Below, piece after piece: positions 1 to 46,855 of a DNA stretch of 64,000 bases. Numbering within the stretch: position 1 is the stretch's first letter; every line of letters starts with the position of its first letter. Position numbers and translations under genes: made by a program. The notes beneath the pieces were generated by a model. That model made no database searches. It worked only from the letters and a program-made list of their open reading frames with translations, and was not told where the DNA came from. The DNA is from Lentzea sp. NBRC 105346 (lineage in GTDB: Bacteria > Actinomycetota > Actinomycetes > Mycobacteriales > Pseudonocardiaceae). The stretch is from contig NZ_BSTQ01000002.1 in NCBI RefSeq assembly GCF_030269605.1, positions 124,001 to 188,000 on the forward strand, written 5' to 3'.

Positions 1-1973
1 CGGAACGCGTACTGCCGGATCGTCCACAGCTCGTCGATGATCGCGGCCTCGTCCCACGGCGGGTCGAGCTGGCCGGGCACCGCCGGGTAGGAGTCGATCA
101 TGATCACGCGGGAGACCTGCTCACCGCGGGCGCGCAGCTGCCGGCCCACCTCGTAGGCGACGATGCCGCCGAACGAGTGGCCGCCGATGACGTACGGGCC
201 GTACGGCTGGATCAGCTTGATCTCGTCGATGTACCGCGCCGCGAGGATCTCGACCTCGTCGATCGGCTCCTCGGTGCCGTCGAAACCGGGGCCCTGCAGG
301 CCGATGAACGGCTGCCCCTGCCCCATCGCCCGCGCGAGCGGCAGCAGGTAGTAGGCCGCGCCGACCGCGCCCCCGATGCAGAAGAACGGCCGCTGCGGCG
401 TGAGCGACAACGCGAGCTTCGGCTGCCGCTGCTCGACGACCTCGGGTTCGGCAACCGAGACCTGTTGCGCGGCAAGGTGTGCGGCGACCGCGTCGACGGT
501 CGGCAGTTCGAGGAACAACGTGTGCGGCACGCGGAACCCGAGCCAGTCCGACAGCGCGGACTGCAGGGTCGCCACCGACAGCGACTCCAGGCCCAGCGAG
601 CTCAGCGGGGTGTCGGCGCTGATCGACCGCGGGGACACCCGCAGCTCCAGCGCGATGTGCTCCAGCAGCCAGGCGCGGATGGTGTCCGCGGTGATCGCGC
701 TCTTGGGCACGACGCCCTCGCGGAAGAACCGGTCCACCACGTCGTGCGCGTACGCCATGTTGCACTCGACGAGCTCGAACGCCTGCAGGCTGCCGACGTG
801 GTACGTGTGCCGCTGTCCCTGCAGCAGCTCGATGCGGTCGAGCACGCCGTCCGCGAGCTGGTCGGTGGTGAAGTGCGGCATGAACTGCCAGCCGCGCTGC
901 GCGTGCGGCGTGCGCATGGCGCCGCCCATGTCCGCGAGGTCGCGCCGCAGCTCCTCGGACACGTCGAGGCCCTCGTGGCCGTCGACGCCGTCCAGTTCCG
1001 AGGCGCCGTAGGAGTAGCACGCGTAGACGTCGGTGTCGGCGTAGCGGTGGTGGAACGACACGCAGTGCCCGGCGCGGTCGGAGTGCACCGTGTTGCGTTC
1101 CACGAGTGAGAAGGCGTTGTGCGGCAGGCCTTCCGCGGAGCACATCGTGGTGTAGTAGTCGAGGTAGCGGACCTGCCGGGCGAGGTCGCGTTCCTCGTCG
1201 CACGCGTCGAGCGCGGGCAGCACCTGGTCGATCGGCACGGTGAGCACGAGCGCGTCGGCCTCGATGACCTCGTGGTCGACGCGGATGCGCACGCCGTCCT
1301 CGTGCCGTTCGATGCTCTCGACACGCACGCCACAGCGCACGTCCCCCAGCTCGGCGGCGACGCGCTGCCACAACGAGCCGAAGCCGCCCTTGATGGTGAA
1401 GCTGCCCGCGTGGCCCAGCAGGTCGCGCGTCGACGACAGCAGGCCGGTCATCTCGGCGTACTTCACGAAGTACAACGCCGGGATGTCGCGGTCGAGGTAG
1501 CCGTACCCGGCGGCGGTGTAGCCGGTGCCGAGCGACTCGGCCATCTCCTCCAGCCGGTGCTCGCGCAGCCACTCACCGATCGGCGTGCTCAACGCCTTGG
1601 CGGAGTGGGCGAGACCGGGGTCGCCGATGCGCGGGAATTCCTCCGCGCGCAGCTTCGTGTAGCGCTGGAACACCTCGCGGGTGAAGAAAGCCGAGCTCTG
1701 CGGCCGTGACTCGGTGCCGTCGAACACCCGGTGCGGCGTGGTGTCCTCGGTCTCCATGCCGAGCTCGGTGACCAGCTCGGCGAGCCGTTCGTACTTGGTG
1801 GTGCAGACGTGGCCGCCGAGGTCGTAGGCGTGGCCGTCGATCTCGATGGACGCGCACTTGCCCGCGATGGTCTTGGCCTGTTCGAGCACGATGACGCGGT
1901 GGCCGGCCTTCTCCAGCTCGCGCGCGGTGGTCAGACCGCTGACGCCGGCTCCGATGACGCAGATGGTCTTCAT
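1..1973 (-). CDS. FAD-dependent oxidoreductase-ACP-thioesterase fusion (C-terminus beyond window edge)
   Basis: The protein starts with ATG at 1973; its end lies left of base 1. Residues 4-13 form a Rossmann dinucleotide-binding loop (VIGAGVSG: G8, G10, G13), and about the first 420 residues resemble the flavin amine-oxidase/protoporphyrinogen-oxidase family. A carrier domain follows, with the phosphopantetheine serine S464 in LGLESLS, then an alpha/beta-hydrolase thioesterase with nucleophile S600 in GGHSFGG. The start overlaps the stop of the acyl-AMP ligase by four bases (ATGA), so the two are probably translationally coupled. I infer that the ligase loads an acyl group on this ACP, that the flavin domain oxidises or desaturates it, and that the thioesterase releases it. 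The family of each domain is fairly clear; the substrate and order of steps are guesses. Confidence 0.82.
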   Translation of the reverse strand, partial: MKTICVIGAGVSGLTTARELEKAGHRVIVLEQAKTIAGKCASIEIDGHAYDLGGHVCTTKYERLAELVTELGMETEDTTPHRVFDGTESRPQSSAFFTREVFQRYTKLRAEEFPRIGDPGLAHSAKALSTPIGEWLREHRLEEMAESLGTGYTAAGYGYLDRDIPALYFVKYAEMTGLLSSTRDLLGHAGSFTIKGGFGSLWQRVAAELGDVRCGVRVESIERHEDGVRIRVDHEVIEADALVLTVPIDQVLPALDACDEERDLARQVRYLDYYTTMCSAEGLPHNAFSLVERNTVHSDRAGHCVSFHHRYADTDVYACYSYGASELDGVDGHEGLDVSEELRRDLADMGGAMRTPHAQRGWQFMPHFTTDQLADGVLDRIELLQGQRHTYHVGSLQAFELVECNMAYAHDVVDRFFREGVVPKSAITADTIRAWLLEHIALELRVSPRSISADTPLSSLGLESLSVATLQSALSDWLGFRVPHTLFLELPTVDAVAAHLAAQQVSVAEPEVVEQRQPKLALSLTPQRPFFCIGGAVGAAYYLLPLARAMGQGQPFIGLQGPGFDGTEEPIDEVEILAARYIDEIKLIQPYGPYVIGGHSFGGIVAYEVGRQLRARGEQVSRVIMIDSYPAVPGQLDPPWDEAAIIDELWTIRQYAF

Positions 1974-3679
1974 CCGGCGGTTCCTTCCAAGTAGGCCTGG
2001 CGGCACGCGCGGCGGCGGATCTTGCCGCTGGTGGTCTTGAGCACCAGTCCCTGCCGGCCGACGACGACCTCGGCCACGAGCTGATGGGTGGCGAAGAGGC
2101 GTTGCCGGACGGCGTCGGCGATGTCGGCTCGATGTTCGTCGGAGGGCTTCTTCTCCTTCGACTCCACGAAGATGACGAGCTTCTCGCTGTCCTCGCCGGG
2201 GACGCTGAACGAGGCGAGGCCGCCGGGCCGGATCTCCGGGTGGCTGTCGCGGACCGCGTCCTCGATGTCCTCGGGGTAGAAGTTGCGGCCGTTGATGATG
2301 ATGACGTCCTTGTGCCGTCCGGTGATGTAGAGCTCGTCCTCGTGCAGGAAGCCGAGGTCGCCGGTGCGCAGGTACTCGACGTCGTCGCCGGGCAGGGTGG
2401 CGTGGAACACCCGCCGGGTCTCGGCCTCCAGGCCGTAGTAGCCGAGCGCCGTGGTGGCGGCGTGGACCCAGACCTCGCCGACACGGCCGGGTTCGCACGG
2501 CAGCAGCGTCTCCGGGTCGACGATGCGGACGCGGCCGCCGGGCTTGGTCATCCGGCCGCAGCCCATGAACCGGGTGCCGCCGGGTGCGATCTTGACCTCA
2601 CCCCGCTGCAGCGCGTGCTTGTCGAGCGTGAGCTCCCGCTTGCCGCCCATGGTCACGCTGACCGTGGCCTCGGCCAGGCCGTACGCGGGATAGAAGGTGT
2701 AGCGCTGCAGGCCGCTGGGCCCGAACGCGCGGTAGAACGAGTCCACAGTGGAGGGCCGGATCGGCTCCGCGGCGGACATGACGACCCGCAGCGAGCTCAG
2801 GTCCCACGCGGCGCGCTGCGCCGGTGTCGTCTTGCGGACGGCGAGCTCGAACGCGAAGTTCGGCGCGGCTGTGTGGGTCGCCTTGACGCGCGACATCACG
2901 TCGAACCAGACCGACGGGCGCTGCAGGAACGTCAGCGGCGACAGGAGGTGGGTGTGCGAGTTGCCCGCGATCGTGCTGATGATGCAGCTGATCAGCCCGA
3001 GGTCGTGGTACTGCGGCACCCAGAAGACACCGCGCGTGCCGTCACCGAGCTCCAGGTCGCGCGCGTTGGAGCGGACCTCCTCGCTCAGGTTGCCGTGTGT
3101 GATGATCACGCCCTTGGGCGCCGCGGTGGAGCCCGAGGTGTACTGCAGCAGCGCCGGTTCGTCGGCGTGCGCCGGCTCGTGCCACTCGAACGCCCCGCCG
3201 GCCGGTCGGCACTTGTCCGTGCGGTGCCAGCGGATCCGGGGCCAGCTGGGCTTGGTCTTGTCGAACAGGCCCGTGACCGCGCCGACCGTCCGCGCGCGTT
3301 CATAGGTGGAGTTGGTCAGGACCGCTTGTGGCTTGCAGCTCTCCACGATGCGGTTGAACCCGACGAGATCCTGCTTGAGCCGCATGGGGTTCGGCGGGTA
3401 CACCGGCACCGGCACGACGCCGGCCGCCATGCAACCCAGCAACGCTCGCACGAAGTCGGGGCCTGGCGGGTAGACCAGCACGGCGCGATCACCGGGCAGG
3501 AACCCCCAGGCGCGCAACGAGGAGGCGATCATCTCCGCCGAGTCCGCCAACCCGGCGACGGTGATCGTCTCCTCGTCGCGCCCACGTTCGTCGACGAACG
3601 TGAACAGCGGCCGCTCTGGCTCGCGATTGCGCAACGAACAGAAAGCGGAGAGCAGGGAATGCTCGGTGCTTGTTTTCAT
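1970..3679 (-). CDS. Fatty acyl-AMP ligase (FAAL)
   Basis: This 569-residue member of the acyl-adenylate-forming superfamily has the ATP-binding loop LLQYTSGSTAAPKG and the later YGLAEAT and GRHKDVIIINGRN motifs. The TSGSTAAPKG loop and the RHKDVIIINGRNFYPEDIE stretch are those of FAAL enzymes, which make acyl-AMP and pass the acyl group to a carrier protein rather than to CoA. It carries no ACP of its own. The nearest acceptor is the ACP in the overlapping downstream gene, so the two likely work as a pair. It is transcribed away from the PUFA-like synthase genes out of a shared 600-bp control region. The start is ATG at 3679; no strong ribosome-binding site is visible. Confidence 0.9.
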   Translation of the reverse strand: MKTSTEHSLLSAFCSLRNREPERPLFTFVDERGRDEETITVAGLADSAEMIASSLRAWGFLPGDRAVLVYPPGPDFVRALLGCMAAGVVPVPVYPPNPMRLKQDLVGFNRIVESCKPQAVLTNSTYERARTVGAVTGLFDKTKPSWPRIRWHRTDKCRPAGGAFEWHEPAHADEPALLQYTSGSTAAPKGVIITHGNLSEEVRSNARDLELGDGTRGVFWVPQYHDLGLISCIISTIAGNSHTHLLSPLTFLQRPSVWFDVMSRVKATHTAAPNFAFELAVRKTTPAQRAAWDLSSLRVVMSAAEPIRPSTVDSFYRAFGPSGLQRYTFYPAYGLAEATVSVTMGGKRELTLDKHALQRGEVKIAPGGTRFMGCGRMTKPGGRVRIVDPETLLPCEPGRVGEVWVHAATTALGYYGLEAETRRVFHATLPGDDVEYLRTGDLGFLHEDELYITGRHKDVIIINGRNFYPEDIEDAVRDSHPEIRPGGLASFSVPGEDSEKLVIFVESKEKKPSDEHRADIADAVRQRLFATHQLVAEVVVGRQGLVLKTTSGKIRRRACRQAYLEGTAG

Positions 3680-4062
3680 CTGGAGCCCGATCCGTCAGAA
3701 CCGTAGAACAACGAGACACAGACGAAAGCAACGTCTGAAGCTTTTGACCGGGACCGTAGCAACCGAGACGGCCCGGTCAAAGCCCGAGATACCCGATTGG
3801 CTGATCGCCGTTACGGTTGCACCGCTCACCGCAAACGAAACAGCGCGTCAAGGTGAGACAAGGTTCTTGACTTCCGGACAACCGAGTACTTTTGGATACC
3901 GTTGTCCTGTCGATCGAAACCGACAGACTGTCGATTCCATGTCACACGTCTGACCAGCGGATACATAACATTGAGTACTCCATTTGACGTACCAAAGATT
4001 GTTCGTTTGGGCACGAAGAGTGCAGCTGGCGGACGCTGTTGCGGCCATTGGCAGGCATCCAG

Positions 4063-4148
4063 TTGAGACGTAGCAGGTCCGCTCGACCGCTCGTCGCAAA
4101 TCTGGTGCCAATTGAGACGAGATGTGGCCGTTGGATACCTATTGAGAC
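4063..4148 (+). repeat. Three TTGAGAC direct repeats upstream of the synthase genes
   Basis: TTGAGAC occurs at 4063-4069 (preceded by G), 4112-4118 and 4142-4148 (both preceded by A). All are on the plus strand, spaced 49 and 30 bp apart. A near match, ATGGAGACAA, reads on the minus strand at about 4235-4245. The same heptamer returns twice after the last synthase gene. Direct heptamer repeats are typical of SARP-type activator sites, but no SARP gene is in the window, so that link is only a possibility. Confidence 0.55.
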
Positions 4149-4244
4149 AACGGCTCCCCCCTTCGTGTGATTGCACAGAAAAGCATCGGGAAGTCAATAT
4201 TTCTGCGGTAGCTTCGGCCCCGACTAGAGATACATTTGTCTCCA

Positions 4245-4264
4245 TTGGGTTCGAATGGACCCAA
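4245..4264. promoter_or_regulatory. Inverted repeat TTGGGT-N8-ACCCAA, possible operator
   Basis: A 6-8-6 inverted repeat lies 22 bp before the pfaD-like start codon. This position, over or just after the likely promoter, suits an operator or an mRNA leader stem. No regulator can be named. Confidence 0.35.
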
Positions 4265-4285
4265 ATAAAGTGAAGTCGAGCAGGC

Positions 4286-5950
4286 ATGTTCCCACTCCGC
4301 CAGGGACTGACCCGCACCTACTTGTCTGGAGTGACGGAAGTGCTGGCCTATTCTCCCGACGCACGAGCGGTTTTGCCGTCGATCTCCGAGTGGAGTGCGG
4401 GCACCCCACGGTTCAGCCCGGACGCCATCGCGGCGGCACTGCAACGCTGCCGGGACCCCCTGCACATCATCGCGGGCGACGAGGGCGTGGGCGTCGCGGT
4501 CGACGGTGTGGCCGCCGGTCCGGGTGAAGGCACTCACCGGCTGTTGGGCGTGCTGCCCCCGCTCTACCCCGAATGGCTGGGAGACCGCTCGTTCTGCACC
4601 ACTCACAGTGTGCGTTTCCCTTATGTCGCAGGCGAGATGGCCAACGGCATCGCGACGACGCGCATGGTGATCGCGATGGCGCGCGCGGAGATGCTCGGCT
4701 TCTTCGGCGCCGGCGGTCTGGGGTTCGAGGCCGTGGAGCGCGCGGTCGACGAGCTGGTGTCAGAGCTCGGGTCCCAGGAGCAGAACTGGGGCGTGAACCT
4801 GATTCACTCGCCCAACGAGCCCGAACTGGAGGAGCGCGTCGCCGATCTGTTGCTGCGCCGCGGGGTGCCCAAGATCTGCGCGTCGGCGTTCATGGGCCTC
4901 ACGCCCGCGGTCGTGCGGTGTGCGGCGGCGGGCCTGCGGCTCGCGGCGGACGGCACGGTGGTGCGCCGCACCTCGGTGTTCGCCAAGGTGTCCCGGCCGG
5001 AGGTGGCCGAGAAGTTCATGTCCCCGGCGCCGCAGGAGCTGCTGAACGTCCTGGTGGCGCGGGGACAGCTGACCGCCGACGAGGCCGCCTTGGCGGCTCG
5101 CGTGCCGGTGGCCGAGGACGTGACCGTCGAGGGCGACAGCGGTGGTCACACGGACAACCGGCCGCTGGTGTCGTTGCTGCCTGCGGTACTCGGGTTGCGC
5201 GACGAGTGCGTGCGGAAGTTCGGTTATGCCCGGCAGATCCGCGTCGGCGCGGCCGGCGGGCTCGGCACGCCTTCGTCGGTGGCCGCCGCGTTCGCGCTGG
5301 GTGCGGCCTATGTCGTGACCGGTTCGGTGAACCAGGTCGCGGACGAGTCCGGACTGTCGGCGGACGCGAAGTCGATGCTCGCTGAGGCCGACGTGGCGGA
5401 CGTCGTGATGGCGCCGGCGGCCGACATGTTCGAGCTCGGCGTGAAGCTGCAGGTGTTGCGGCGCGGCACGATGTTCGCCGGCCGCGCGCAGCAGCTGTAC
5501 GACGTGTACCGCTCGTGTGCCGGGCTGGAGGAGATCCCGGCCGCCACGCGGGCCCGGCTGGAGCGCGACGTGTTCCGCGCGCCGCTTTCGTCGGTGTGGG
5601 CCGAGACCGAACGGTTCTGGCTCTCGCGTGATCCCGGTGAGGTGGAGAAGGCCTCCCGTGATCCAAAGCACCGGATGGCGCTGGTGTTTCGTTGGTATCT
5701 CGGGAAGTCCTCCCGGTGGGCCATCGAAGGCGACACCTCGCGCCGGACGGACTACCAGATCTGGTGCGGCCCCGCGCTGGGCGCGTTCAACCGCTGGACG
5801 CGCGGCAGCTTCCTCGCGGCCGACCGGCCGGTCGTGCAGATCGCACTGAACCTTCTGGAGGGCGCCGCGGTCCTGACCCGCGCCCACCAGGCCCGTTCCT
5901 ACGGCGTCGCGGTGCCGGCGCTGTCGTTCACCCCTCGCCCTCTTTCCTAG
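4286..5950 (+). CDS. PfaD-like trans-acting enoyl reductase (FabK/nitropropane-dioxygenase family)
   Basis: This 554-residue flavin-dependent enoyl reductase is of the kind that serves PUFA synthases in trans. The sequence shows a TIM-barrel FMN-binding protein: the stretch VGAAGGLGTPSSVAAAFALGA followed by VTGSVNQ is the phosphate-binding region, and the C-terminal part (FWLSRDPGEVEKA, then KHRMALVFRWYLGKSS and DYQIWCGPALGAFN) is characteristic of PfaD. In PUFA synthesis PfaD reduces the enoyl intermediates on the megasynthase ACPs. It is the first gene of the rightward operon, and the next gene starts only 8 bp later. The start at 4286 follows the weak site GTCGAGCAGG; a GTG at 4331 is an alternative. 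Because this reductase is iterative but selective, the product may keep some double bonds. Confidence 0.88.
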   Translation: MFPLRQGLTRTYLSGVTEVLAYSPDARAVLPSISEWSAGTPRFSPDAIAAALQRCRDPLHIIAGDEGVGVAVDGVAAGPGEGTHRLLGVLPPLYPEWLGDRSFCTTHSVRFPYVAGEMANGIATTRMVIAMARAEMLGFFGAGGLGFEAVERAVDELVSELGSQEQNWGVNLIHSPNEPELEERVADLLLRRGVPKICASAFMGLTPAVVRCAAAGLRLAADGTVVRRTSVFAKVSRPEVAEKFMSPAPQELLNVLVARGQLTADEAALAARVPVAEDVTVEGDSGGHTDNRPLVSLLPAVLGLRDECVRKFGYARQIRVGAAGGLGTPSSVAAAFALGAAYVVTGSVNQVADESGLSADAKSMLAEADVADVVMAPAADMFELGVKLQVLRRGTMFAGRAQQLYDVYRSCAGLEEIPAATRARLERDVFRAPLSSVWAETERFWLSRDPGEVEKASRDPKHRMALVFRWYLGKSSRWAIEGDTSRRTDYQIWCGPALGAFNRWTRGSFLAADRPVVQIALNLLEGAAVLTRAHQARSYGVAVPALSFTPRPLS

Positions 5951-5958
5951 GAACCACC

Positions 5959-8900
5959 ATGAACTCCACCGTTCCCGTCGCCGTGGTGGGACTCGGCGCG
6001 TTCACGCCGGGCGCTTCCGACGTCGCCGGTTTCTGGCGCACCGTGCTCTCGGGCCGCGACATGATCACCGACGTACCCGCGTCGCACTGGCTGATCTCGG
6101 ACTACTACGACCCCGATCCCAGCGCCCCGGACAAGACCTATGGCCGGCGTGGCGCGTTCCTCTCGCCGGTCGACTTCGACCCGCTTTCCTATGGCGTGCC
6201 ACCGAAGTCCGTGCAGGCGACCGACACGACGCAGCTGCTGTCGCTGATGGTCGCCGACGCCGTGCTGCGGGACTACTCGGGTGAAGTGGACCGCGACCGC
6301 ACGTCCGTCATCCTCGGCTCCGCGCCGCTGGAGCTGCTGTACAACATGGCGTCGCGACTGCAACGTCCCGTGTGGCTGAAGTCGTTGCGCGAGGCCGGTG
6401 TCGCCGAGTCCCTGGCGGTGGAGGTGTGCGACCGGATCGCCGCGCACTACGTGCCGTGGCAGGAGGCGTCGTTCCCCGGCATGCTGTCCAATGTGGTCGC
6501 CGGCCGCATCGCCAACCGCTTCGACCTGCACGGCACCAACTGCACGACGGACGCCGCCTGTGCCTCCTCGCTGGCGGCGGTGTCGGGCGCGGTGAACGAG
6601 CTGTCGCTCGGGGTGAGCGACATGGTGATCACCGGTGGCGTCGACACCCTCAACGACATCTTGATGTACATGTGTTTCTCCAAGACACCCGCGCTGTCTC
6701 CCACCGGCGACTGCCGCCCGTTCTCCGACTCGGCCGACGGCACGATGCTGGGCGAGGGCCTGGTCATGTTCGCGCTGAAGCGGCTGGCTGATGCGGAGGC
6801 CGCGGGTGACCGGATCTACGCGGTGATCCGCGGCATCGGCACCGCGTCCGACGGGAAGAGCACGGCGATCTACGCGCCGCTGCCTTCGGGGCAGGAGCGC
6901 GCGCTTTCGCGTGCGTATGTTTCGGCCGGCTACGGGCCCGACACCGTGGAGCTGGTCGAGGCGCACGGTACCGGGACCGTGGCCGGTGACGCGGCGGAGT
7001 TCGCCGCCCTGCGTTCGGTGTTCTCGGCTTCCGGACGCTCGGATACCCAGTGGTGCGCTTTGGGATCCGTGAAGTCGCAGATCGGTCACACGAAGGCCGC
7101 GGCGGGTGCGGCCGGGATGTTGAAGGCCGTGTTGTCGTTGCAGCACAAGGTGTTGCCGCCGACGATCAAGGTGGATACGCCGAACCCCGCTTTGGACCTG
7201 GAGTCGTCGCCGCTGTACCTGAACACCGCCGCCCGCCCGTGGGTACGCTCGGCCGACCACCCGCGGCGCGCGTCGGTGTCGTCGTTCGGGTTCGGCGGCA
7301 GCAACTTCCACCTGGCGCTGGAGGAGTACACCGGGCCGACGCCCGCCTATCGTTCGCGGTCGATGCCGTGCGAGCTCGTCCTGTTCAGCGGCACTTCGGT
7401 GGACTCACTGGTGCCTTCGTCGTTCACCGGCTCGCTGGCGAGCATCGCTCGTTCGTCGCAGCTGTCGTTCGACGCCTCTGCTCCTTGCCGCTTGGCCATT
7501 ATCGCCACCTCGGTTGAGGATCTTTCTTCGAAGGCTTCACAGTTCGCTTCCCGGCGAACCTCTCTGCCCGGTGTCTGGTACAGCTCGGGTCCGGCCGCGG
7601 GTCCGGTCGCGTTCCTGTTCCCCGGCCAGGGCAGCCAGTACGTCGGCATGGGCGCTGACGTGGCGATGCACTTCCCCAGCGCCGGTGCGGTGTGGGACGA
7701 CGCTGCCTCTCTCGGTCTGCACAATGTCGTGTTTCCGATTCCGGCGTTCTCTGAATCTGAACTGGCGGCGCAGCAGGATCGTTTGACGGCAACGGAATGC
7801 GCCCAGCCCGCCCTGGCTCTGACAAGCCTGTCCCTGTTGTCTGTTTTGGACTCTCTTGGGTTGCGAGCTTCGTTCGCCGGCGGGCACAGCTTCGGCGAGC
7901 TCGTGGCTTTGCACTACGCCGGGGCACTGTCTGTTTCATCTTTGCTCGCTTTGGCGCGCCGGCGCGGCGAGCTGATGCGCGATGCCGCCTCGACGCCCGG
8001 CGCGATGCTGGCGGTGACGGCGTCGCGTTCGTCCGTCGAGTCGGCGTTGTCCGGTGTCTCGGACTGGTGGATCGCCAACCACAACGCGCCTTCGCAGGTG
8101 ATCATCTCCGGTTCGCTCGAGGCGATCTCTTCGGCTTCGTCGCTGCTGGCGTCGTTCAACCCGCAACGCCTCAACACCGCGACGGCGTTCCACAGCCCGA
8201 TCGTGTCGTCGGCCAGCGCTCCCCTGCTGGAATTTTTGTCTACTATGGATGTCAGCGCTTGTTCTCTTCCCGTGTACGGCAACGCTGATGCGGCCGTGTA
8301 TCCGTCGTCGGCCGACGAGATCCGGTCGCGGGTGGCGTCGCACCTCGCCACGCCGGTCGACTTCGTGGCGCAGATCGAGGCCATGTATGCCGCTGGGGCG
8401 CGCACGTTCGTCGAGGTCGGCGCCGGTTCTACCGTGTCGCGCCTGACTTCGCGCATTCTCGCCGACCAGCCCCACGTCGCGGTGAGCCTGGACCGCAAGG
8501 GGCGTGACGGCGTGACGAGCCTGTTCGACGCCCTGGGGCAACTCGCCGTTGCGGGTGTCGCCATGGATTTCGCGGCCCTGTGGGCCGATTACGCGCCCGA
8601 ACCGGAGGTTGGCGCCAAGCCGAGGATGACGTTGGCGATCTCCGGCGCCAACTACGACCGCCCGTACCCGCCGGTGAACGGCGAGGCCGAGCTCCCGCCG
8701 CCGAACCCGGTCGCAACTGCTCGCGCCGATGCTGCCGCATTCGGGCTCACGGCAGGGTTGTCCGGGGCCGCCGCAGGAGTGTCCGCGCTCGCCACCAACC
8801 CTGCCGGGCTCGACGCCGCATCCGGCATCCCCGCCGCATCCGGGCCTGCGGCGGGCGGCCCTGGGCTCGCGGCGACCAACAGTTCCCGCGCAGCGGCCGC

Positions 8901-11900
8901 CACCCCAGCGCTCGTCACTTCCGGTTCCCCCGCCGCCGCACCGCAAACGACCCCACAGCCCGCAACTGTGCCGCCAGCCCGACTGGCCGAAGGAGCACCG
9001 GTGACGCTGCCCACCGCCCGCCTCGGCGCCGCACCCCTCGCCGCCACCACGACGTCGCCGACCATCGCGGCCCCGGCCGCATCACCGACGACCGCTGCGT
9101 CGCCGGCCGTCTCCGCACCGCCCGTCGCGTCGCCGGCCACCGCAGCACCTGGCGCGTCGCCGATCCTCGCCCCCGCCGCACCGCCGGCCGTGTCCCCCAC
9201 CGCCGCGCCGACGGCCCTCACCTCATCTTCCCCAGCCGACTCCGGCTGGCTCGCCGCCTACCAGGACCTGCAGCGCCAGACGGCCGAGGTACACGCCGCC
9301 TACCAGCAGGCGATGACCGAGACCCACCTCAGCTACCTGCGCGCCACCGAGGCGGCCCTGCGCAACCTCGCCGGCTCCGACCTCCCGCCCACGGGTCCCG
9401 TACTCCCGACAGCCGACTCCTTCCTCCCCGCCGCCCCGCCCGCGCTTCCTCTTTCGCGGAACGAACCGATCGCGGCACCGGTTCCCGCGCCGGCGGGTCA
9501 ACGGCCCGTTGACGAACCCGACTTCCCGACGGCCCTCGCAACCCCGCCTGCCACGCCGCCGCCACTCCCCCTGCCGACGGCGCCGCCCGCTCCGACGAAC
9601 GATCTCCGCACCACTCTCCTAGAGGTCGTCGCGGACAAGACCGGTTACCCGGCCGACCTGCTCACCCCGGACATGCAGCTGGAGACCGACCTCGGCATCG
9701 ACTCCATCAAGCGCGTCGAGATCCTCTCCGCGCTGCGCGAACAGGCCCCGCACCTGCCCGAGGTGGACGCCGCCGAACTCGGCAAACTCCAGACCCTCGG
9801 CCAGATCGCCGCCGCCTTCGGCACCACTTCGGCGCCCCCACCGGCACCCGACCTCACCACCACAGCAGCCTCGGCACCCGACCTCAACACCACCCTGCTC
9901 GCCGTGGTGGCCGACAAGACCGGCTACCCGGCCGACCTGCTCACCCCGGACATGCAGCTGGAGACCGACCTCGGCATCGACTCCATCAAGCGCGTCGAGA
10001 TCCTCTCCGCGCTGCGCGAACAGGCCCCGCACCTGCCCGAGGTGGACGCCGCCGACCTCGGCAAACTGCAGACCCTGGGCGAAATCGCCGCCGCCTTCGG
10101 CGCTACGCCCGCACCGGCAGCCAACGTCACTACCACCGCGGCCCCAGCCGCCCTCACCATCCCCGCCCCGACCACCCCGGACCTCAACACCATCCTGCTG
10201 GCGGTGGTCGCGGACAAGACCGGCTACCCGGCCGACCTGCTCACCCCGGACATGCAGCTGGAGACCGACCTCGGCATCGACTCCATCAAACGGGTCGAGA
10301 TCCTCTCCGCGCTGCGCGAACAGGCCCCGCACCTGCCCGAGGTGGACGCCGCCGACCTCGGCAAACTGCAGACCCTGGGCGAAATCGCCGCAGCCTTCGG
10401 CACCACCCAGGCGCCGGCACCAGCCGCATCGGACCCCACCACCACGATCCCGGCCGCACCCGACCCGACCACGCCGGACCTCAACACCATCCTGCTCGCG
10501 GTGGTCGCGGACAAGACCGGCTACCCGGCCGACCTGCTCACCCCGGACATGCAGCTGGAGACCGACCTGGGCATCGACTCCATCAAACGGGTCGAGATCC
10601 TCTCCGCGCTGCGCGAACAGGCCCCGCACCTCCCCGAAGTCAACGTGGCAGACCTGGGCAAACTCCACACGCTCGGCGAAATCGCCCAAGCCCTCGACAC
10701 ATCCCCGACAACCACACTGAGCCGACAGGTGGTCCGGATGGTGCCGGCCCAGGCCCCAGGCCTGAGCGTCGCCGGGCTCACCGGCCGCCTCGTCGTCACC
10801 GACGACGGCCACGGCACGGCCGAGCAGGTCGTCAGTCTCCTGGCGGACCTGGACGTCAAGGCCGAAGTGGTGACCGAAGTGCCGCAGGACGCCGACGGCG
10901 TCATCTTCCTCGGCGGCCTCAAGGACGGCGACGTCATCCACGAAGCGTTCGAAGCCGCGCGCAGGGCGGCCGGCAAGAAGCTGTTCGTCACCGTGCAGGA
11001 CACCGGCGGCGACTTCGGGTTGAGCGGCAGCGCGCCGGACCGGGTCCGCCACGGCGGCATCGCCGGGCTCGCCCGGTGCGCGGCGCGCGAGTGGCCGGAC
11101 ACCGCGGTGAAGGTGATCGACGTGCGACGCGACGAGCACACCGCGAAGCACATCGTCGACGAGTTGTGGCGCGGCGGCGACACGCTCGACGTCGGCATTC
11201 GCGACGGGGCGCGGTACACGGTCGCGACGGTCGAGGAGCCCGTCGGGGACACCGCACCGATCAGCGGCGTGATCGTCGCGACCGGCGGGGCGCGGGGCGT
11301 GACCGCGGAAGCGCTCATCGAGCTGAGCAAGCAGGACGTCAAGCTCGTCCTCATTGGACGGACGCCGCTGGAGCCGGACGAGTTCGCCCACATCACCGAC
11401 GAGAACGAGCTCAAGCGCGCGGTGATCACGGGCGGCGGCTCGCACGCCACGACGCAAAAGATCCTGGCGGCACGGGAGATCCGGCGCACGCTTGAACGGA
11501 TGCGGTGCGAGGTCCGTTATGAGGCGGTCGACGTCACGGACGCGACGGCGCTCAACGAGAGGCTCGACCGCGTCCGCGCGGAGTGGGGTCCGATCACGGG
11601 CATCGTGCACGGCGCGGGCATCCTCGCGGACCGGCGCATCACCGATCTGAGCGTCGAGGAGTTCGACCGCGTCATCGACACGAAGGTCAAGGGGCTCCAG
11701 GCGTTGCTCGACGCCACGCACGACGACCCCATCACGCACCTGTGCCTGTTCTCCAGCATCGCGGCGCGCGCGGGCAACGCCGGGCAGAGCGCGTACGCGA
11801 TCGCCAACGAGGTGCTCAACCAGGTCGCCGGCGCCGAACAGGCGAAGAACCCGGACCGCAAGGTCGTCTCCATCGCCTGGGGCGCCTGGGCGGGCGGCAT

Positions 11901-12756
11901 GGTCACGCCCAGCCTGGCGCAACACTTCCACAGCATCGGGGTTCCGTTGATTCCGCTCCGCGAAGGCGCCGAGCAGTTCGTGAAAGAGCTCACCGGCCAG
12001 GGACGTGCCGCGCAGGTCGTCATCGCACCGCACGGCACGGCCTCACTGACCGACGAGGTGCGCACGGTCAAGGCCGACGTCCGGCTGGAGCACTTCCCGG
12101 TTCTCGCCGACCACGTCATCGAGGGCACGCCGGTCGTGCCGATCGCGCTGGCCGTCGAGTGGTTCGCCGCGGCCACCGGGCACGACACGCTGCTCGACCT
12201 CACCGTGCTGCGCAGGATCACCGCCGAGGACGGCGTGATCACGTTGCGCGGCAAGGGGAACACGGTCGAGCTGAGCACGGGCGTGCCGCACTATCGCGCC
12301 GTGCTGGGCACGCCGTCGGACAAGTCGCGACAGTGGAATGCGAAGACTCCCAACGAGAAGACGTCCTACGACGGCTTCCCGTTGTTCCACGGCCCGCGGT
12401 TCCAGGCGATCACCGATCACGTCGTAACCAACAACGACGCGACGGCGAACGTTGTCGGGGCGCGGCGGCTCGGGTGGGATGGCGACCACTGGCGCACGGA
12501 CCCGGCGGCGGTCGACGCGTGCCTGCAGCTCGCTCTGTTGTGGGGCAAGGAGGTCTTCGGCGGCAACAGCCTGCCGATGGGCGTCCGCGAGTTCCGGCTG
12601 CACCGGCCGGGCCTGCTCGACGGCGGCGCGCGATGCGTGCTCAACGGCGGCGTCGTGCACGACGGCCGCGCCGAGTGCGACGTCGCCATCGTCGACGCCG
12701 ACGGCGAGGTCCGCGCCGAGCTGTTCGGCATCTCCATCGTCCGCCGGCCCCAGTGA
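5959..12756 (+). CDS. PfaA-like iterative PUFA synthase, KS-AT-ACPx4-KR-DH
   Basis: This 2265-residue megasynthase begins with a ketosynthase at about residues 1-450, with the complete Cys201/His336/His377 triad (DAACASS, HGTGT, IGHT). An acyltransferase at about 540-900 has active serine S644 in GHSFGE. An Ala/Pro linker follows, then four carrier domains with LGIDSIKR serines at 1249, 1342, 1442 and 1541. A ketoreductase has TGGARG at 1775 and the YAIAN tyrosine at 1946. A terminal PS-DH hot-dog domain has the dehydratase motif HVIEGTPVVP starting at H2052 and a later VDACLQ aspartate. The order matches PfaA of marine PUFA synthases. ATG at 5959 follows AGGAA at 5949-5953. The gene is coupled to the upstream pfaD-like gene and runs directly into the next synthase gene. 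Confidence 0.93.
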   Translation: MNSTVPVAVVGLGAFTPGASDVAGFWRTVLSGRDMITDVPASHWLISDYYDPDPSAPDKTYGRRGAFLSPVDFDPLSYGVPPKSVQATDTTQLLSLMVADAVLRDYSGEVDRDRTSVILGSAPLELLYNMASRLQRPVWLKSLREAGVAESLAVEVCDRIAAHYVPWQEASFPGMLSNVVAGRIANRFDLHGTNCTTDAACASSLAAVSGAVNELSLGVSDMVITGGVDTLNDILMYMCFSKTPALSPTGDCRPFSDSADGTMLGEGLVMFALKRLADAEAAGDRIYAVIRGIGTASDGKSTAIYAPLPSGQERALSRAYVSAGYGPDTVELVEAHGTGTVAGDAAEFAALRSVFSASGRSDTQWCALGSVKSQIGHTKAAAGAAGMLKAVLSLQHKVLPPTIKVDTPNPALDLESSPLYLNTAARPWVRSADHPRRASVSSFGFGGSNFHLALEEYTGPTPAYRSRSMPCELVLFSGTSVDSLVPSSFTGSLASIARSSQLSFDASAPCRLAIIATSVEDLSSKASQFASRRTSLPGVWYSSGPAAGPVAFLFPGQGSQYVGMGADVAMHFPSAGAVWDDAASLGLHNVVFPIPAFSESELAAQQDRLTATECAQPALALTSLSLLSVLDSLGLRASFAGGHSFGELVALHYAGALSVSSLLALARRRGELMRDAASTPGAMLAVTASRSSVESALSGVSDWWIANHNAPSQVIISGSLEAISSASSLLASFNPQRLNTATAFHSPIVSSASAPLLEFLSTMDVSACSLPVYGNADAAVYPSSADEIRSRVASHLATPVDFVAQIEAMYAAGARTFVEVGAGSTVSRLTSRILADQPHVAVSLDRKGRDGVTSLFDALGQLAVAGVAMDFAALWADYAPEPEVGAKPRMTLAISGANYDRPYPPVNGEAELPPPNPVATARADAAAFGLTAGLSGAAAGVSALATNPAGLDAASGIPAASGPAAGGPGLAATNSSRAAAATPALVTSGSPAAAPQTTPQPATVPPARLAEGAPVTLPTARLGAAPLAATTTSPTIAAPAASPTTAASPAVSAPPVASPATAAPGASPILAPAAPPAVSPTAAPTALTSSSPADSGWLAAYQDLQRQTAEVHAAYQQAMTETHLSYLRATEAALRNLAGSDLPPTGPVLPTADSFLPAAPPALPLSRNEPIAAPVPAPAGQRPVDEPDFPTALATPPATPPPLPLPTAPPAPTNDLRTTLLEVVADKTGYPADLLTPDMQLETDLGIDSIKRVEILSALREQAPHLPEVDAAELGKLQTLGQIAAAFGTTSAPPPAPDLTTTAASAPDLNTTLLAVVADKTGYPADLLTPDMQLETDLGIDSIKRVEILSALREQAPHLPEVDAADLGKLQTLGEIAAAFGATPAPAANVTTTAAPAALTIPAPTTPDLNTILLAVVADKTGYPADLLTPDMQLETDLGIDSIKRVEILSALREQAPHLPEVDAADLGKLQTLGEIAAAFGTTQAPAPAASDPTTTIPAAPDPTTPDLNTILLAVVADKTGYPADLLTPDMQLETDLGIDSIKRVEILSALREQAPHLPEVNVADLGKLHTLGEIAQALDTSPTTTLSRQVVRMVPAQAPGLSVAGLTGRLVVTDDGHGTAEQVVSLLADLDVKAEVVTEVPQDADGVIFLGGLKDGDVIHEAFEAARRAAGKKLFVTVQDTGGDFGLSGSAPDRVRHGGIAGLARCAAREWPDTAVKVIDVRRDEHTAKHIVDELWRGGDTLDVGIRDGARYTVATVEEPVGDTAPISGVIVATGGARGVTAEALIELSKQDVKLVLIGRTPLEPDEFAHITDENELKRAVITGGGSHATTQKILAAREIRRTLERMRCEVRYEAVDVTDATALNERLDRVRAEWGPITGIVHGAGILADRRITDLSVEEFDRVIDTKVKGLQALLDATHDDPITHLCLFSSIAARAGNAGQSAYAIANEVLNQVAGAEQAKNPDRKVVSIAWGAWAGGMVTPSLAQHFHSIGVPLIPLREGAEQFVKELTGQGRAAQVVIAPHGTASLTDEVRTVKADVRLEHFPVLADHVIEGTPVVPIALAVEWFAAATGHDTLLDLTVLRRITAEDGVITLRGKGNTVELSTGVPHYRAVLGTPSDKSRQWNAKTPNEKTSYDGFPLFHGPRFQAITDHVVTNNDATANVVGARRLGWDGDHWRTDPAAVDACLQLALLWGKEVFGGNSLPMGVREFRLHRPGLLDGGARCVLNGGVVHDGRAECDVAIVDADGEVRAELFGISIVRRPQ
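9601..10700 (+). repeat. Four tandem, nearly identical ACP-coding repeats
   Basis: About 225 bp encoding a carrier domain is repeated four times. The phosphopantetheine serine codons lie at 9703, 9982, 10282 and 10579, so the periods are 279, 300 and 297 bp. Long runs are identical even at third positions, and only the Ala/Pro/Thr linkers differ. Tandem ACPs are a hallmark of PUFA synthases; the DNA-level identity suggests recent duplication or gene conversion. Confidence 0.9.
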
Positions 12757-19914
<7,158 letters not shown>

Positions 19915-20069
19915 CGGTTCAAAAGAGGGACGACGACAGTTCTTTCGGTTACTCATAGGGCAATACATTCGGGATGCGATCTGCGACACACCGGATCGGC
20001 CCAATCTGACCGATCAGTCGTTCCACCAGGCGGTCCATTGCTGGCAGGAACCGACAAGGCGTTGGGTAA

Positions 20070-20088
20070 AACCGACGCTTCGTCGGTT
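20070..20088 (+). terminator. Short hairpin downstream of the synthase operon
   Basis: Eight-base arms AACCGACG and CGTCGGTT around a CTT loop lie 155 bp after the PfaC-like stop. There is no clear U-run after it, so the terminator role is tentative. Confidence 0.4.
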
Positions 20089-20127
20089 CCGCCTATTTCC
20101 CGGACGTGCACATATCAAACCTTCCAA

Positions 20128-20150
20128 TTGAGACACGAACCTATTGAGAC
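20128..20150 (+). repeat. Two TTGAGAC elements downstream of the synthase genes
   Basis: TTGAGAC occurs at 20128-20134 and 20144-20150, 16 bp apart, each preceded by A. They are the same sequence and orientation as the three upstream of the pfaD-like gene, 16 kb away. They may be binding sites in the promoter of the small gene at 20333. Confidence 0.5.
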
Positions 20151-20332
20151 GAATTGCTCCGGCGATTGACCGCCCCGCCCGGCGTCAGGCAACATCATTG
20201 CGCTGGACCGATGCGGCCGACCGCTGCCCGTTCCGCCGACAATGGTGTGTTTCACGTAGTGGAGAGAGAATTCCGCCTTTGTCCTCACCAGCCGCAGCGG
20301 TCCACCTGGTGCAGCACGATCGGGAGGCAACC

Positions 20333-20620
20333 GTGGACCAGGCCCTGGACGCCCTGCGTGACCGCCTGGCGGAGATCGTGGCGTCGCCGCCGGAGAACAC
20401 CGAGGACCTGGTGGAGACCCTGGCCACGCTCGCCAAGCTGTCGAACCAGTGGTCCGAAGCGATCCAAGCCCTGCGCGCCCCCACCAGACGCCTCGTCGGC
20501 CCCGCGGCCGCCGCGTCGGTGAGCGTCGCCGCGCGCCGCGCCGAAGAGTCGTTCATCGAGCTCGAAATCACTCTCGGTGACGCGTTGGCCGCACAGCCAC
20601 GCGTGATCCGCCAGCCCTGA
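20333..20620 (+). CDS. Small hypothetical protein at the end of the lipid cluster
   Basis: The protein has 95 residues and I do not recognise the family. I chose GTG at 20333 because GGGAGG lies five bases upstream; the open frame continues back to 20144, but those residues look non-coding. The sequence is mostly helical, acidic at the start (VDQALDALRDRLAEIVAS) and Ala-rich in the middle, without a signal peptide, membrane segment or cysteines. The upstream TTGAGAC pair suggests co-regulation with the synthase genes, but a functional link is inferred only from position. Confidence 0.6.
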   Translation: MDQALDALRDRLAEIVASPPENTEDLVETLATLAKLSNQWSEAIQALRAPTRRLVGPAAAASVSVAARRAEESFIELEITLGDALAAQPRVIRQP

Positions 20621-27549: not shown

Positions 27550-28380
27550 ATGGTCCGAAGCGTGAAGCTCTTGGCCACCAGCGACCTCCACGTCTCCTAC
27601 CAGGACAACCGTCATGTTGTGGAGACGATGCGTCCGTCGTCCGACGACGACTGGCTGATCATCGCTGGCGACATCGGCGAACGGTTCACCGACATCGAGT
27701 GGACCCTCACGACGCTGCAGAAGCATTTCGCGAAGCTGGTCTGGTCGCCGGGCAACCACGAGCTGTGGACCACGAAGGACGACGCGGTCCAGTCGCGCGG
27801 CGAGGTTCGCTACAAGCAACTCGTCGAGCTGTGCCGCGGCCTGGGCGTCGTCACGCCGGAGGATCCGTACGAGGTCTTCGACGGCGAGGGCGGGCCGGTC
27901 ACCGTGTGCCCGCTGTTCATCGGCTACGACTACACGTGGCGCCCGAAGGGCACGCACGACACGACGAGCGCGCTGAAGGCCGCCCACGACGCGGGCGTGG
28001 TGTGCACGGACGAGTACTTCCTGCACCACGAGCCGTACGCCTCACGCGCCGAGTGGTGCGCCGCACGCGTCGAGGAGACCGCGCAACGACTGTCCGCGGT
28101 CGAGGGACCGACGGTGCTGATCAACCACTACCCGCTCGTGCGCGACCCCACGTTCGTCCTGCGCTACCCCGAGTTCGCGCTGTGGTGCGGAACGGATGCG
28201 ACCGCCGACTGGCACCTGCGGTTCAACTGCAGGGAGATGGTCTACGGGCACCTGCACATTCCGCGCACCACCTGGTACGACGGCGTACGGTTCGACGAGG
28301 TCTCGCTGGGCTACCCGCGCGAGTGGCAGCCGCGCGGCGACCGGCAGGTCCTTCTCCACGACGTGCTGCGGGAGTCCTAG
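27550..28380 (+). CDS. Metallophosphoesterase, calcineurin-like
   Basis: The 276-residue protein carries the full two-metal motif series: TSDLHVS, AGDIGE, SPGNHELW, INHYPL and YGHLHIP. The next gene, a PPTase, begins within its stop codon (TAGTG). This phosphoesterase-PPTase pairing is common in actinobacteria, as I recall it, although why they travel together is not known to me. GTG at 27562 is an alternative start. Confidence 0.85.
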   Translation: MVRSVKLLATSDLHVSYQDNRHVVETMRPSSDDDWLIIAGDIGERFTDIEWTLTTLQKHFAKLVWSPGNHELWTTKDDAVQSRGEVRYKQLVELCRGLGVVTPEDPYEVFDGEGGPVTVCPLFIGYDYTWRPKGTHDTTSALKAAHDAGVVCTDEYFLHHEPYASRAEWCAARVEETAQRLSAVEGPTVLINHYPLVRDPTFVLRYPEFALWCGTDATADWHLRFNCREMVYGHLHIPRTTWYDGVRFDEVSLGYPREWQPRGDRQVLLHDVLRES

Positions 28381-29015
28381 TGCTGAAGGAGTTGCTGCCG
28401 CCGCCGATCGCGGCGGTGGAGCGGTTCGACGACGCCGAGATCACCCTCTTCCCCGAGGAGGAGGCCGTGCTGGGCAAGGCCGTCGAGAAGCGCCGCCGCG
28501 AGTTCAGCACCGCTCGCTGGTGCGCGCGCGAGGCGTTGAACGTCCTGGGCCTCCCGCCGTCGCCGATCCTGCCCGGTCCCAAGCGTGAGCCGCTGTGGCC
28601 GACCGGCATCGTCGGCGCCATCACGCACTGCACCGGGTATCGGGCCGTCGCACTGGCCCGCGGCACGGACTTCGCGACGATCGGCATCGACGCCGAGCCG
28701 CACGCGCCCGCGCCGGACGGCGTGCTGAAGGCGATCGCCGTGCAGACCGAGCTCGACCGGATGCCGAAGCTCGAGGCCATCGATCCCACCGTGTGCTGGG
28801 ACCGGTTGCTGTTCAGCGCCAAGGAGTCCGTCTACAAGGCGTGGTACCCGGTGGCGAAGCGCTGGCTCGGGTTCGAGGACGCCGACATCACGCTCGACCC
28901 CGGCGGCACGTTCGAGGCGCGCATCCTGCTGCCCGACGCACCCGTGAGCGGGTACAGCGGCCGGTGGATCGTTCGCGACGGCATCCTGCTGACCGCTATC
29001 GCCGTGCCGGCCTGA
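28380..29015 (+). CDS. 4'-phosphopantetheinyl transferase, EntD/Sfp-like
   Basis: The protein has 211 residues. The GTG start overlaps the phosphoesterase stop by one base. Hallmarks are GAITHCTGY, the magnesium motif GIDAEPH and FSAKESVYKAWYP. It transfers phosphopantetheine from CoA to carrier-domain serines. It is the only full PPTase in the window, so it may serve the five visible ACPs of the lipid cluster 8.5 kb upstream; it may equally be the general enzyme of the genome. Confidence 0.9.
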   Translation: MLKELLPPPIAAVERFDDAEITLFPEEEAVLGKAVEKRRREFSTARWCAREALNVLGLPPSPILPGPKREPLWPTGIVGAITHCTGYRAVALARGTDFATIGIDAEPHAPAPDGVLKAIAVQTELDRMPKLEAIDPTVCWDRLLFSAKESVYKAWYPVAKRWLGFEDADITLDPGGTFEARILLPDAPVSGYSGRWIVRDGILLTAIAVPA

Positions 29016-45590: not shown

Positions 45591-45697
45591 TCGCCCATGT
45601 TCACCCGAAGAGCGCTACTACGCCAAGTAAGTATCTGGCGGCATCCGGGCGACATCTCAGTTAGGCAGCGAACCAAGCTTGCTGGGAGGCAACCGCC

Positions 45698-46855
45698 ATG
45701 CCTGACCAACCGCCCCTGAACTACGTACCCGACCAGCTGGTCATCGACAGCACCGAAGAGGCCGTCGTGCTGCCGGAGCTGGACGATCTCCAGATCAAGT
45801 ACAGCGCCGTGGAGACGATCCCCGAGTTCGATCTGAAGCTGTTGCAGCTCGAATACCGGGCCGATCTCGAGAAGAAGATCGACGCCACCCCCGTCCTCGA
45901 ACTCGACCCCATCCTCTTCGAACTGCGAAGACGGTTCGAGAACTCCAACCAGATGCCGTTCCTCGCCAAGAACCGCACAATCTCCAGCCGGTTCGGCGCA
46001 ACTCCCGAGACGCAGTCGCACACCGACTTCGATCCCGCCTTCATCGCTCCTCCGGCCACACCGCTCTTCGCGCCGAGCGGCGGCCGGGGCGTACGGATCG
46101 GCGTGCTCGACACCAAGATCGCCAAGCACGACAAACTGCTCGACCACATCGAGACGCGCAGCCCGGACCCTTACCTCCCGTACCTGCCTGCGGATTCCTA
46201 TGTGCAGTTGTGGGAGGAAGGCCATGCGACGTTCGTCGTCGGGCGCATCCTGGCCGCCGCGCCGGAGGCGACCGTCGTCGTGCGGCATGTGCTCGACCGC
46301 AAAGGCGAGGCGCCGGCGTGGGACACGGTCAAGGCACTGGCCGGGTTCCTCGCCGACGACGTCAAGATCCTCGTGCTGGCCATGGGGTGCTACACCGACG
46401 ACGGGAAGGCACCGAAGATCGTCGCGCGGGCCGTCGAGCGGCTCAAGTCCAAGATGCTCATCGTCGCGGCGGCGGGCAACCACGGCGCCGTCAAAGGCAT
46501 GAAGAACGGCATCACCAAGGACTCACCGACGTGGCCCGCCGCACTGGACGACGTCACCGCGGTCGGCGCGCACACCCAGACGGGGGCGCTGACGGAGTTC
46601 AGTCCGCGCCCGCTCTGGGTCAACTGCACGGCGCTCGGCGAGCACGTGGACAGCACATACCTGACCGGCGATGTCCGGCTACGCGAAGGCGGCGTCGTCA
46701 CCTTCCAGGGGTACGCGCGCTGGGAGGGCACCTCGTTCTCGGCCGCGACCGTGGCCGGGGCGATCGCCGTGGTGATGGCACGCGACAACGTCGACGCGCA
46801 CGAGGCGCTGAAGAAGGCGATCGCCGAGAACGGCGCCGTCCACAAGTACCCGTAG
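45698..46855 (+). CDS. Cytoplasmic S8 (subtilisin-like) serine protease
   Basis: The 385-residue protein has the full triad: D138 in GVLDTK, H176 in EEGHATFVVG and S346 in EGTSFSAAT, with the oxyanion Asn in AAAGNHG. An N-terminal region of about 115 residues (acidic, ELDDLQIKYSAVETIPEFDL) may be a propeptide or regulatory part. There is no signal peptide, so it should act inside the cell. GGGAGG precedes the ATG. Head-to-head arrangement with the TPR-CHAT gene is the main hint to function. Confidence 0.88.
   Translation: MPDQPPLNYVPDQLVIDSTEEAVVLPELDDLQIKYSAVETIPEFDLKLLQLEYRADLEKKIDATPVLELDPILFELRRRFENSNQMPFLAKNRTISSRFGATPETQSHTDFDPAFIAPPATPLFAPSGGRGVRIGVLDTKIAKHDKLLDHIETRSPDPYLPYLPADSYVQLWEEGHATFVVGRILAAAPEATVVVRHVLDRKGEAPAWDTVKALAGFLADDVKILVLAMGCYTDDGKAPKIVARAVERLKSKMLIVAAAGNHGAVKGMKNGITKDSPTWPAALDDVTAVGAHTQTGALTEFSPRPLWVNCTALGEHVDSTYLTGDVRLREGGVVTFQGYARWEGTSFSAATVAGAIAVVMARDNVDAHEALKKAIAENGAVHKYP

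Follow-up and report, generated by a model that had tools for sequence, protein, structure and literature searches.

The window, which is the whole 64,000-nucleotide stretch analysed here (G000:C2:124001-188000), belongs to the 9.4-Mb genome of Lentzea sp. NBRC 105346 and contains five genes that we group as one cluster (Table 1). A fatty-acyl-AMP ligase (FAAL) and a protein composed of FAD, ACP, thioesterase and P450 domains (the FAD protein) are encoded on the minus strand, whereas PfaD, PfaA and a PfaC-type synthase are encoded on the plus strand, and about 600 bases separate the two groups. The cluster starts to the left of the window, at C2:122326. The C-terminal P450 of the FAD protein falls outside the window and was therefore invisible to the sequence-only reading, an earlier inspection of the letters and their translations. 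Profile searches against Pfam and NCBIfam bore out the presence of the PfaD, PfaA, PfaC-type, FAAL and FAD-ACP-thioesterase genes that this reading had listed. The gene calls come from a GC-position script, so that the start codons are approximate.

Table 1. Features of the cluster and of the candidate PfaE gene in window coordinates
Feature	Position	Strand	Evidence or remark
FAD (isomerase-like)-ACP-thioesterase-P450 protein	1-1973 (C2:122326-125973; L005:16326-19973)	-	1215 aa, N-terminal 657 aa in window
FAD domain (Amino_oxidase), PAI-like	699-1973	-	
ACP of FAD protein, Ser464	474-671	-	Pfam PF00550, residues 435-500
Thioesterase start, cut by window edge	3-389	-	Pfam PF00975, residues 529-773 of whole protein
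Fatty-acyl-AMP ligase (FAAL)	1970-3679	-	Pfam PF00501 204 bits, PF23024 37 bits, both above cut-off
Intergenic region, FAAL/pfaD divergent	3680-4285	.	Three TTGAGAC-containing 11-base direct repeats
11-base direct repeats	4059-4069, 4108-4118, 4138-4148		TTGAGAC inside each
PfaD-type enoyl reductase	4286-5950	+	TIGR02814 643 bits, cut-off 449.25
PfaA-type synthase	about 5959-12756	+	TIGR02813 1388.6 bits, cut-off 1010.1
PfaA domains	KS ~5974-7173, AT ~7612-8493, four ACPs ~9600-10760	+	Pfam
PfaA domains	KR ~11272-11892, PS-DH ~12052-12732	+	Pfam
PfaC-type synthase (KS-CLF-AT-FabA-type DHs-PS-DH)	12757-19914	+	Pfam, NCBIfam, alignment to Pfa3
PfaC domains	KS ~12772-14133, then CLF, AT ~15232-16110	+	
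PfaC FabA-type dehydratases	His codons 17617 and 18676	+	
PfaC C-terminal PS-DH/DH4	~18934-19600; H2071 codon 18967	+	
Sfp-type phosphopantetheinyl transferase, candidate PfaE	28380-29012	+	Pfam PF17837 and PF01648

The sequence-only reading described a PfaD-type reductase and a PfaA-type synthase with four ACPs, and both descriptions hold. Each protein scores above the cut-off of its family (Table 1), and PfaA contains PP-binding domains in four stretches according to Pfam, with four identical ACP motifs DLGIDSIKRVEIL. PfaD and PfaA above the family cut-offs, tandem ACPs, a phosphopantetheinyl transferase (PPTase) and the KS, CLF and dehydratase features of PfaC given below place the system in the PUFA (Pfa) synthase family. 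The PPTase is the sole match to PF01648 in the genome at E ≤ 0.001 and, judging from its domains, could act as PfaE. It is perhaps a housekeeping enzyme, since a metallophosphoesterase adjoins it.

The Pfam search of the PfaC-type protein returned a KS and three FabA stretches, the FabA match scoring 244.9 bits. The KS residues C165, H300 and H336 are kept, as are the dehydratase histidines H1621 and H1974. The CLF is KS-like and lacks the cysteine, reading VSAEEASG. For the putative PfaB-like AT that the sequence-only reading placed inside PfaC, residues and profiles point different ways: the domain is co-linear with the AT of Pfa3, and S913 and H1029, which we take from the motif to be the AT dyad, are invariant in a six-row alignment, but the PfaB profile TIGR02816 gave 84 bits, under the cut-off of 144.3, and Pfam gave no acyltransferase match. 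The PS-DH-like end of the protein, also proposed earlier, scores below the Pfam threshold (E 0.0078, 16.2 bits, cut-off 23.7), yet it is co-linear with its counterpart in Pfa3 and retains H2071 and D2204, and we accept the assignment.

The search with PfaC scored 7990 candidates sharing most words and returned at least 4164 proteins at E ≤ 0.001. The protein is 48% identical to "Pfa3 [synthetic construct]" (P0098), with 99% of the query covered. H2071 aligns with H2270 of P0098; a hybrid Pfa3 with the substitution H2270A in DH4 reverted to the products seen without DH4 (excerpts of PMC6731297), an equivalence that presumes P0098 to be the hybrid construct of that study. Pfa3 of Minicystis rosea has the order KS-CLF-AT-DH2-DH3 followed by a PKS-type DH4 and an AGPAT (excerpts of PMC6731297 and PMC8436480). 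Both Minicystis and Aetherobacter have been described as having an AT within Pfa3, and an actinobacterial origin of these genes by transfer was proposed (excerpts of PMC8436480). Fused pfaBC genes likewise occur in Types C, H and L of the secondary lipid synthases classified by Shulse and Allen, who in 2011 listed the fusion KS-CLF-AT-DH2 as Type C. In Type L, the order is KS-CLF-DH2-AT, and in Type H, pfaA is split; these two types include actinobacteria (Saccharopolyspora, Streptomyces coelicolor), and the excerpts of the same paper give their products as uncharacterised and PUFA production by S. coelicolor as not demonstrated (PMC3098273). The claim of a "new-looking domain plan" fails, because the plan of KS-CLF-AT-DH2-DH3 with a PKS-type DH4 had been published for M. 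rosea Pfa3 and pfaBC fusions had been listed. A novel PfaC plan was rejected on these published plans and on the nearly full-length match to Pfa3.

The cluster resembles the myxobacterial Pfa1-Pfa2-Pfa3 systems of M. rosea and Aetherobacter in its PfaD, in its PfaA with tandem ACPs and PS-DH, and in the KS-CLF-AT-DH-DH order of Pfa3, with DH4 as in M. rosea. In contrast to these systems, the PfaC-type protein has no AGPAT, ending before the position of the AGPAT in the alignment with Pfa3, and the locus adds the pair of FAAL and FAD-ACP-TE-P450 protein. That unit is not described among the cluster types in the excerpts of Shulse and Allen (PMC3098273). The synthase is thus of a known kind, and the novelty sits in its surroundings, namely in the FAAL/FAD-ACP-TE-P450 pair.

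An AGPAT like that of Pfa3 is present in 48 of 120 PfaC homologues among the matches listed. A tree of 126 PfaC KS-CLF regions, calculated with a quick method and containing long branches (including that of G080 with G187), separated 50 rows with AGPAT and one unlabelled row from the other 75 (SH-aLRT 99). All 13 rows linked to an FAD protein are among the 75, and for 59 of the 75 linkage is not established; the linkage labels of the tree rest on 11 contigs taken as common to the PfaC and FAD-protein lists because their longest-contig values agree (2 from the source genome), and on direct reading of three loci, L036, L037 and L038.

The FAAL consists of an AMP-binding core and a DIP2-like C-terminal domain, and FAALs are among its best PDB matches. 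It scores 375 bits against the NCBIfam model PRK05850, the cut-off of which is 775. A FAAL-specific insertion is a further hallmark of the family. The FAD domain of the neighbouring protein has as its top PDB match 2b9w, a CLA-producing fatty acid isomerase, by sequence, profile, Foldseek and VIA. Its similarity to the isomerase PAI of P. acnes extends over the whole length in both sequence and fold and includes the FAD motif, the Gly8 and Gly10 of which are present in 76 of 77 aligned relatives. The identity to PAI is 22–24%, and in contrast to PAI, the domain is fused to an ACP, a thioesterase and a P450. R82 aligns with R88 of PAI, and S181 takes the place of PAI F193; these PAI residues presumably form the substrate gate. 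The R82 column contains arginine in all 20 rows of the modelling alignment; of the 77 relatives, 49 have arginine there, 16 have a different residue and 12 are gapped. Ser464 of the ACP is kept in all 77. Because the FAD domain is fused to these carrier, release and P450 domains, its substrate is probably carrier-bound.

The search with the whole FAD protein scored 7991 candidates sharing most words, and 81 of the 120 matches listed contain the FAD domain, three of them from the source genome and some being fragments. The architecture of the window protein, FAD-ACP-TE-P450, accounts for 28 of the 81. An additional N-terminal domain similar to coral allene oxide synthase (cAOS) is found in 47, including 26 with the order cAOS-FAD-ACP-TE and 16 with cAOS-FAD-ACP-TE-P450. 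FAD-ACP-TE and FAAL-cAOS-FAD-ACP-AGPAT occur three times each, and five other forms occur once each, among them FAAL-cAOS-FAD-ACP-TE and a protein with an N-terminus of the OsmC/Ohr type. The latter type is also present in the FAD protein of Micromonospora CB01531 (L036; OsmC-family PF02566, E 2e-17). The cAOS-like and OsmC/Ohr-like domains are unrelated types that occupy the same N-terminal place, and the window protein has neither.

A second cluster in the source genome (C32:11118-34030) contains pfa genes, a FAAL and an FAD protein in a gene order that differs from that of the window, and it also features a cAOS-like N-terminus and a further FAD enzyme. The N-terminal domain of this second FAD protein matches coral allene oxide synthase 1u5u with an E of 2.7e-27. 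The heme pocket of the coral enzyme comprises R64, T66, H67, R102, N137 and Y353, and Lys107 coordinates the free carboxylate of the substrate (excerpts of PMC5617202). In 45 aligned cAOS-like rows, the heme tyrosine Y353 and R102 are present in 45, the distal histidine H67 and R64 in 44, and N137 in 35. The domain differs from the coral enzyme in the position of T66, which is threonine in one of the 45 rows and phenylalanine in 36, in the loss of Lys107, and in having no fused lipoxygenase in its second-cluster form. The loss of Lys107 would fit a carrier-bound substrate. A lipoxygenase was considered as the supplier of a hydroperoxide; its profile PF00305 matched none of 7 genomes, and likewise none of 14 control genomes.

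The pair adjoins pfa genes outside the genus as well. The order is PfaC-FAAL-FAD protein in Micromonospora CB01531, where PfaD and PfaA are on the same contig (G163 C121), and in Amycolatopsis xylanica (L037). In Streptomyces phyllanthi (L038), it is FAAL-FAD protein-PfaD-PfaA, and the FAD protein lacks the P450. Among 26 loci in a scan of named genomes, 3 had pfa genes, one (L055) had a FAAL with no pfa gene in reach, and one (L057) had neither. The other 21 are stand-alone Streptomyces FAD homologues, 53–59% identical, with no pfa or FAAL genes in the fetched flanks; at the one of these loci scanned with Pfam (L044), the neighbours are GFO/IDH/MocA sugar-type dehydrogenases, PhyH, SDR and ABC-transport genes. 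The FAAL/FAD unit is rare, since a 502-residue FAD-ACP query matched 5 of 374 genomes of the class, two of which (G424 and G454) were covered in the FAD domain only and have shorter open frames. A whole-protein search at the level of the order gave 114 of 249, which is not a family count, as it was swamped by P450s and took two candidates per genome. PfaD matches above the cut-off were found at 43 places: 28 that were read in other genomes, the one in G163, two in the source genome and 12 unread. No FAD protein was found in the fetched stretch at the 28 loci, some of which end at contig ends. Judging from their large PKS genes, several of the 28 are trans-AT or other PKS loci. The open-licence literature that was searched contained no report of pfa genes paired with a FAAL and an FAD-ACP-TE-P450 protein.

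Of 24 genomes of the genus, 5 were matched by the FAD query (E ≤ 1e-80) and 4 by the PfaD query (E ≤ 1e-100), and the source genome alone has both an FAD protein and a close PfaD. Our reading of the genus covers G603, G595 and G592; G585, with a partial FAD match, was left out. In these three congeners, a FAAL that is 70% identical to that of the window lies beside an FAD protein, the FAD domain of which is 64–65% identical, at the corresponding position of the chromosome. The P450 part of the G595 protein is in a separate frame. The flanking proteins are 83–95% identical to those of the window, and the pair has thus diverged from its window counterpart far more than the flanks have. Blastn with PfaA and the PfaC end detected relics of pfa genes at these loci, with best E values of 7e-25 in G603 and 3.7e-8 in G595, and a single 24-base match to the PfaC end in G592 (E 4.9e-4). 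The relics indicate that these loci probably once contained pfa genes, which have disappeared, whereas the pair was retained.

Based on the domains of the five proteins and the recurrence of the pair, we propose that the locus combines a PUFA synthase with a carrier-bound tailoring unit, which would produce a conjugated or oxygenated PUFA. We put the probability of this reading at about one half. A conjugated or oxygenated product is our first guess because the FAD domain most resembles a fatty acid isomerase. The sequence-only reading had already assigned the FAAL and FAD-ACP-thioesterase genes to the finishing of the synthase lipid. The co-occurrence in three other genera, the second cluster and the gene fusions favour that assignment, whereas the chemistry that we infer differs from the unusual polyunsaturated or polyhydroxylated lipid suggested before.

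The strongest competing explanation is that the pair is independent of the synthase, with which it shares the locus and the promoter region, and uses a different fatty acid, either an ordinary or an exogenous one, as its substrate. The retention of the pair in G603, G595 and G592, where only relics of the pfa operon are left, and the stand-alone FAD genes of Streptomyces leave room for such a unit. Two further genomes, G414 and G574, have a FAAL and a cAOS-FAD protein with no match to PfaD, and the third FAD protein of the source genome has no adjoining pfa or FAAL gene. However, three other genera have pfa genes next to the pair, as does the second cluster in another gene order, and the relics suggest that the congeners formerly had pfa genes at this place. 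We consider an independent pair rather improbable, although it deserves more weight than the remaining alternatives. It is very unlikely that the locus encodes an ordinary membrane PUFA synthase next to which the FAAL and FAD genes lie by chance. PfaD, PfaA and PfaC are complete and of a widespread kind, and the FAD protein is absent at the 28 other PfaD loci that were read, which speaks for it, but this explanation has to contend with the recurrence in several genera, with the gene fusions, and with the lack of an AGPAT for putting the PUFA into phospholipid.

A different chemistry for the FAD domain also has to be considered. The domain could act as an oxidase or a desaturase and form hydrogen peroxide or a peroxide; the catalase-like and Ohr-like domains seen in relatives would then be scavengers, and the lipid would become more unsaturated or hydroxylated instead of isomerised. 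This appears unlikely, since the isomerase outranked oxidases in all four comparisons (sequence, profile, Foldseek and VIA) and the window copy has neither a catalase-like nor an Ohr-like domain. Furthermore, coral cAOS is not a scavenger of hydrogen peroxide (excerpts of PMC5617202).

For the combination of PUFA synthase and carrier-bound tailoring unit, the following pathway can be proposed. PfaA, PfaC and PfaD, primed by the PPTase, would build a methylene-interrupted polyunsaturated acyl chain, as expected from their families and from the intact active-site residues that were inspected. The FAAL would then adenylate the chain and load it onto the ACP of the FAD protein, a transfer suggested by the FAAL-ACP fusions in some relatives. 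Sequence and fold suggest that the FAD domain relocates double bonds while the chain is on the carrier, probably bringing them into conjugation, and the P450 may oxidise the chain. In the sister clusters, the N-terminal allene-oxide-synthase-like or Ohr-like domain may handle a lipid hydroperoxide. The thioesterase would finally release the product; an AGPAT stands in its place in three relatives. We speculate that these steps amount to a bacterial oxylipin line, in which the organism's own PUFA is tethered by the FAAL, remodelled by a flavin isomerase, a P450 and, in the sisters, a cAOS-like or Ohr-like domain, and then released. This wider interpretation is tentative, and we regard it as doubtful.

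Pfa-type clusters that lack an AGPAT occur commonly among actinobacterial sequences, and the sources consulted do not characterise their products. The pair suggests a role for some of them, the conversion of carrier-bound PUFA to conjugated or oxygenated lipids, and it includes an ACP-fused candidate enzyme that resembles a fatty acid isomerase. The cAOS-like, Ohr-like, TE, AGPAT and P450 domains constitute natural part swaps, and the idea is approachable through two genes. A Pfa-type lipid is also handed on for a specialised metabolite in the zeamine/fabclavine and chitinimine hybrids; in contrast to the FAAL and the flavin/P450 carrier protein of the present locus, the recipients there are NRPS/PKS lines (excerpts of PMC13291983).

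The small open reading frame at 20333-20620, downstream of PfaC, probably lies outside the cluster, because a counterpart with 89–92% identity persists at the same position in the three congeners, none of which has an intact pfa operon.

Three congeners of the Lentzea strain (G603, L130; G595, L131; G592, L132-L133) keep the pair formed by the FAAL gene and the gene for the isomerase-like FAD domain-ACP-TE-P450 protein. In all three, the stretch that separates FAAL from the small gene encoding 96 residues carries remnants of pfa genes. The FAD domain and FAAL of the congeners are 64-70% identical to those of the window, and the flanking proteins 83-95%, so that the pair has diverged far more than its surroundings. 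A pair of TTGAGAC motifs, spaced by 15-16 bases, is also located upstream of the 96-residue gene in the three congeners. The window contains six copies of TTGAGAC, compared with 4.4 expected, and therefore only the clustering of the motif is striking, not its number.

Features of the window and of the remaining genome (G000)
Feature	Position	Context
Three 11-base repeats, each with TTGAGAC at its end	window 4059-4148	upstream of pfaD
Two TTGAGAC, spacing 16 bases	window 20124-20150	upstream of 96-residue gene
Third FAD-ACP-TE-P450 copy	L031/L032, G000:C2:617462-621642	without FAAL or pfa
Stand-alone cAOS-like gene and overlapping stand-alone PfaA-like gene	L136:9800-11577 (G000:C6)	

Next to the third FAD-ACP-TE-P450 copy, and in divergent orientation, is the gene of a putative ECF sigma factor. 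The product of the gene overlapping the catalase-related, allene-oxide-synthase-like (cAOS) gene is 41% identical over 249 residues to the ACP-KR-DH part of PfaA, and apparently corresponds to the PfaA dehydratase.

Five proteins (P0203, P0204, P0208-P0210), one of them from Halomonas binhaiensis, are FAAL-TE-P450 fusions without the FAD domain, and their precomputed Pfam domains also include PP-binding. In G187, from a different family of the same order, a further FAAL-like gene (33%) and a gene for a PKS lie after those for PfaD, PfaA and PfaC with AGPAT (L114-L115). Twenty-one Streptomyces loci (L039-L061 except L055 and L057) have a stand-alone isomerase-like FAD gene. The family may have a different role there, since the neighbours in L044 are sugar-type dehydrogenase, PhyH and ABC transport genes.

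Elsewhere in the window (42999-46852), the gene of a CHAT-TPR protein adjoins a divergent subtilase-family gene, and the two products are perhaps a putative protease pair.
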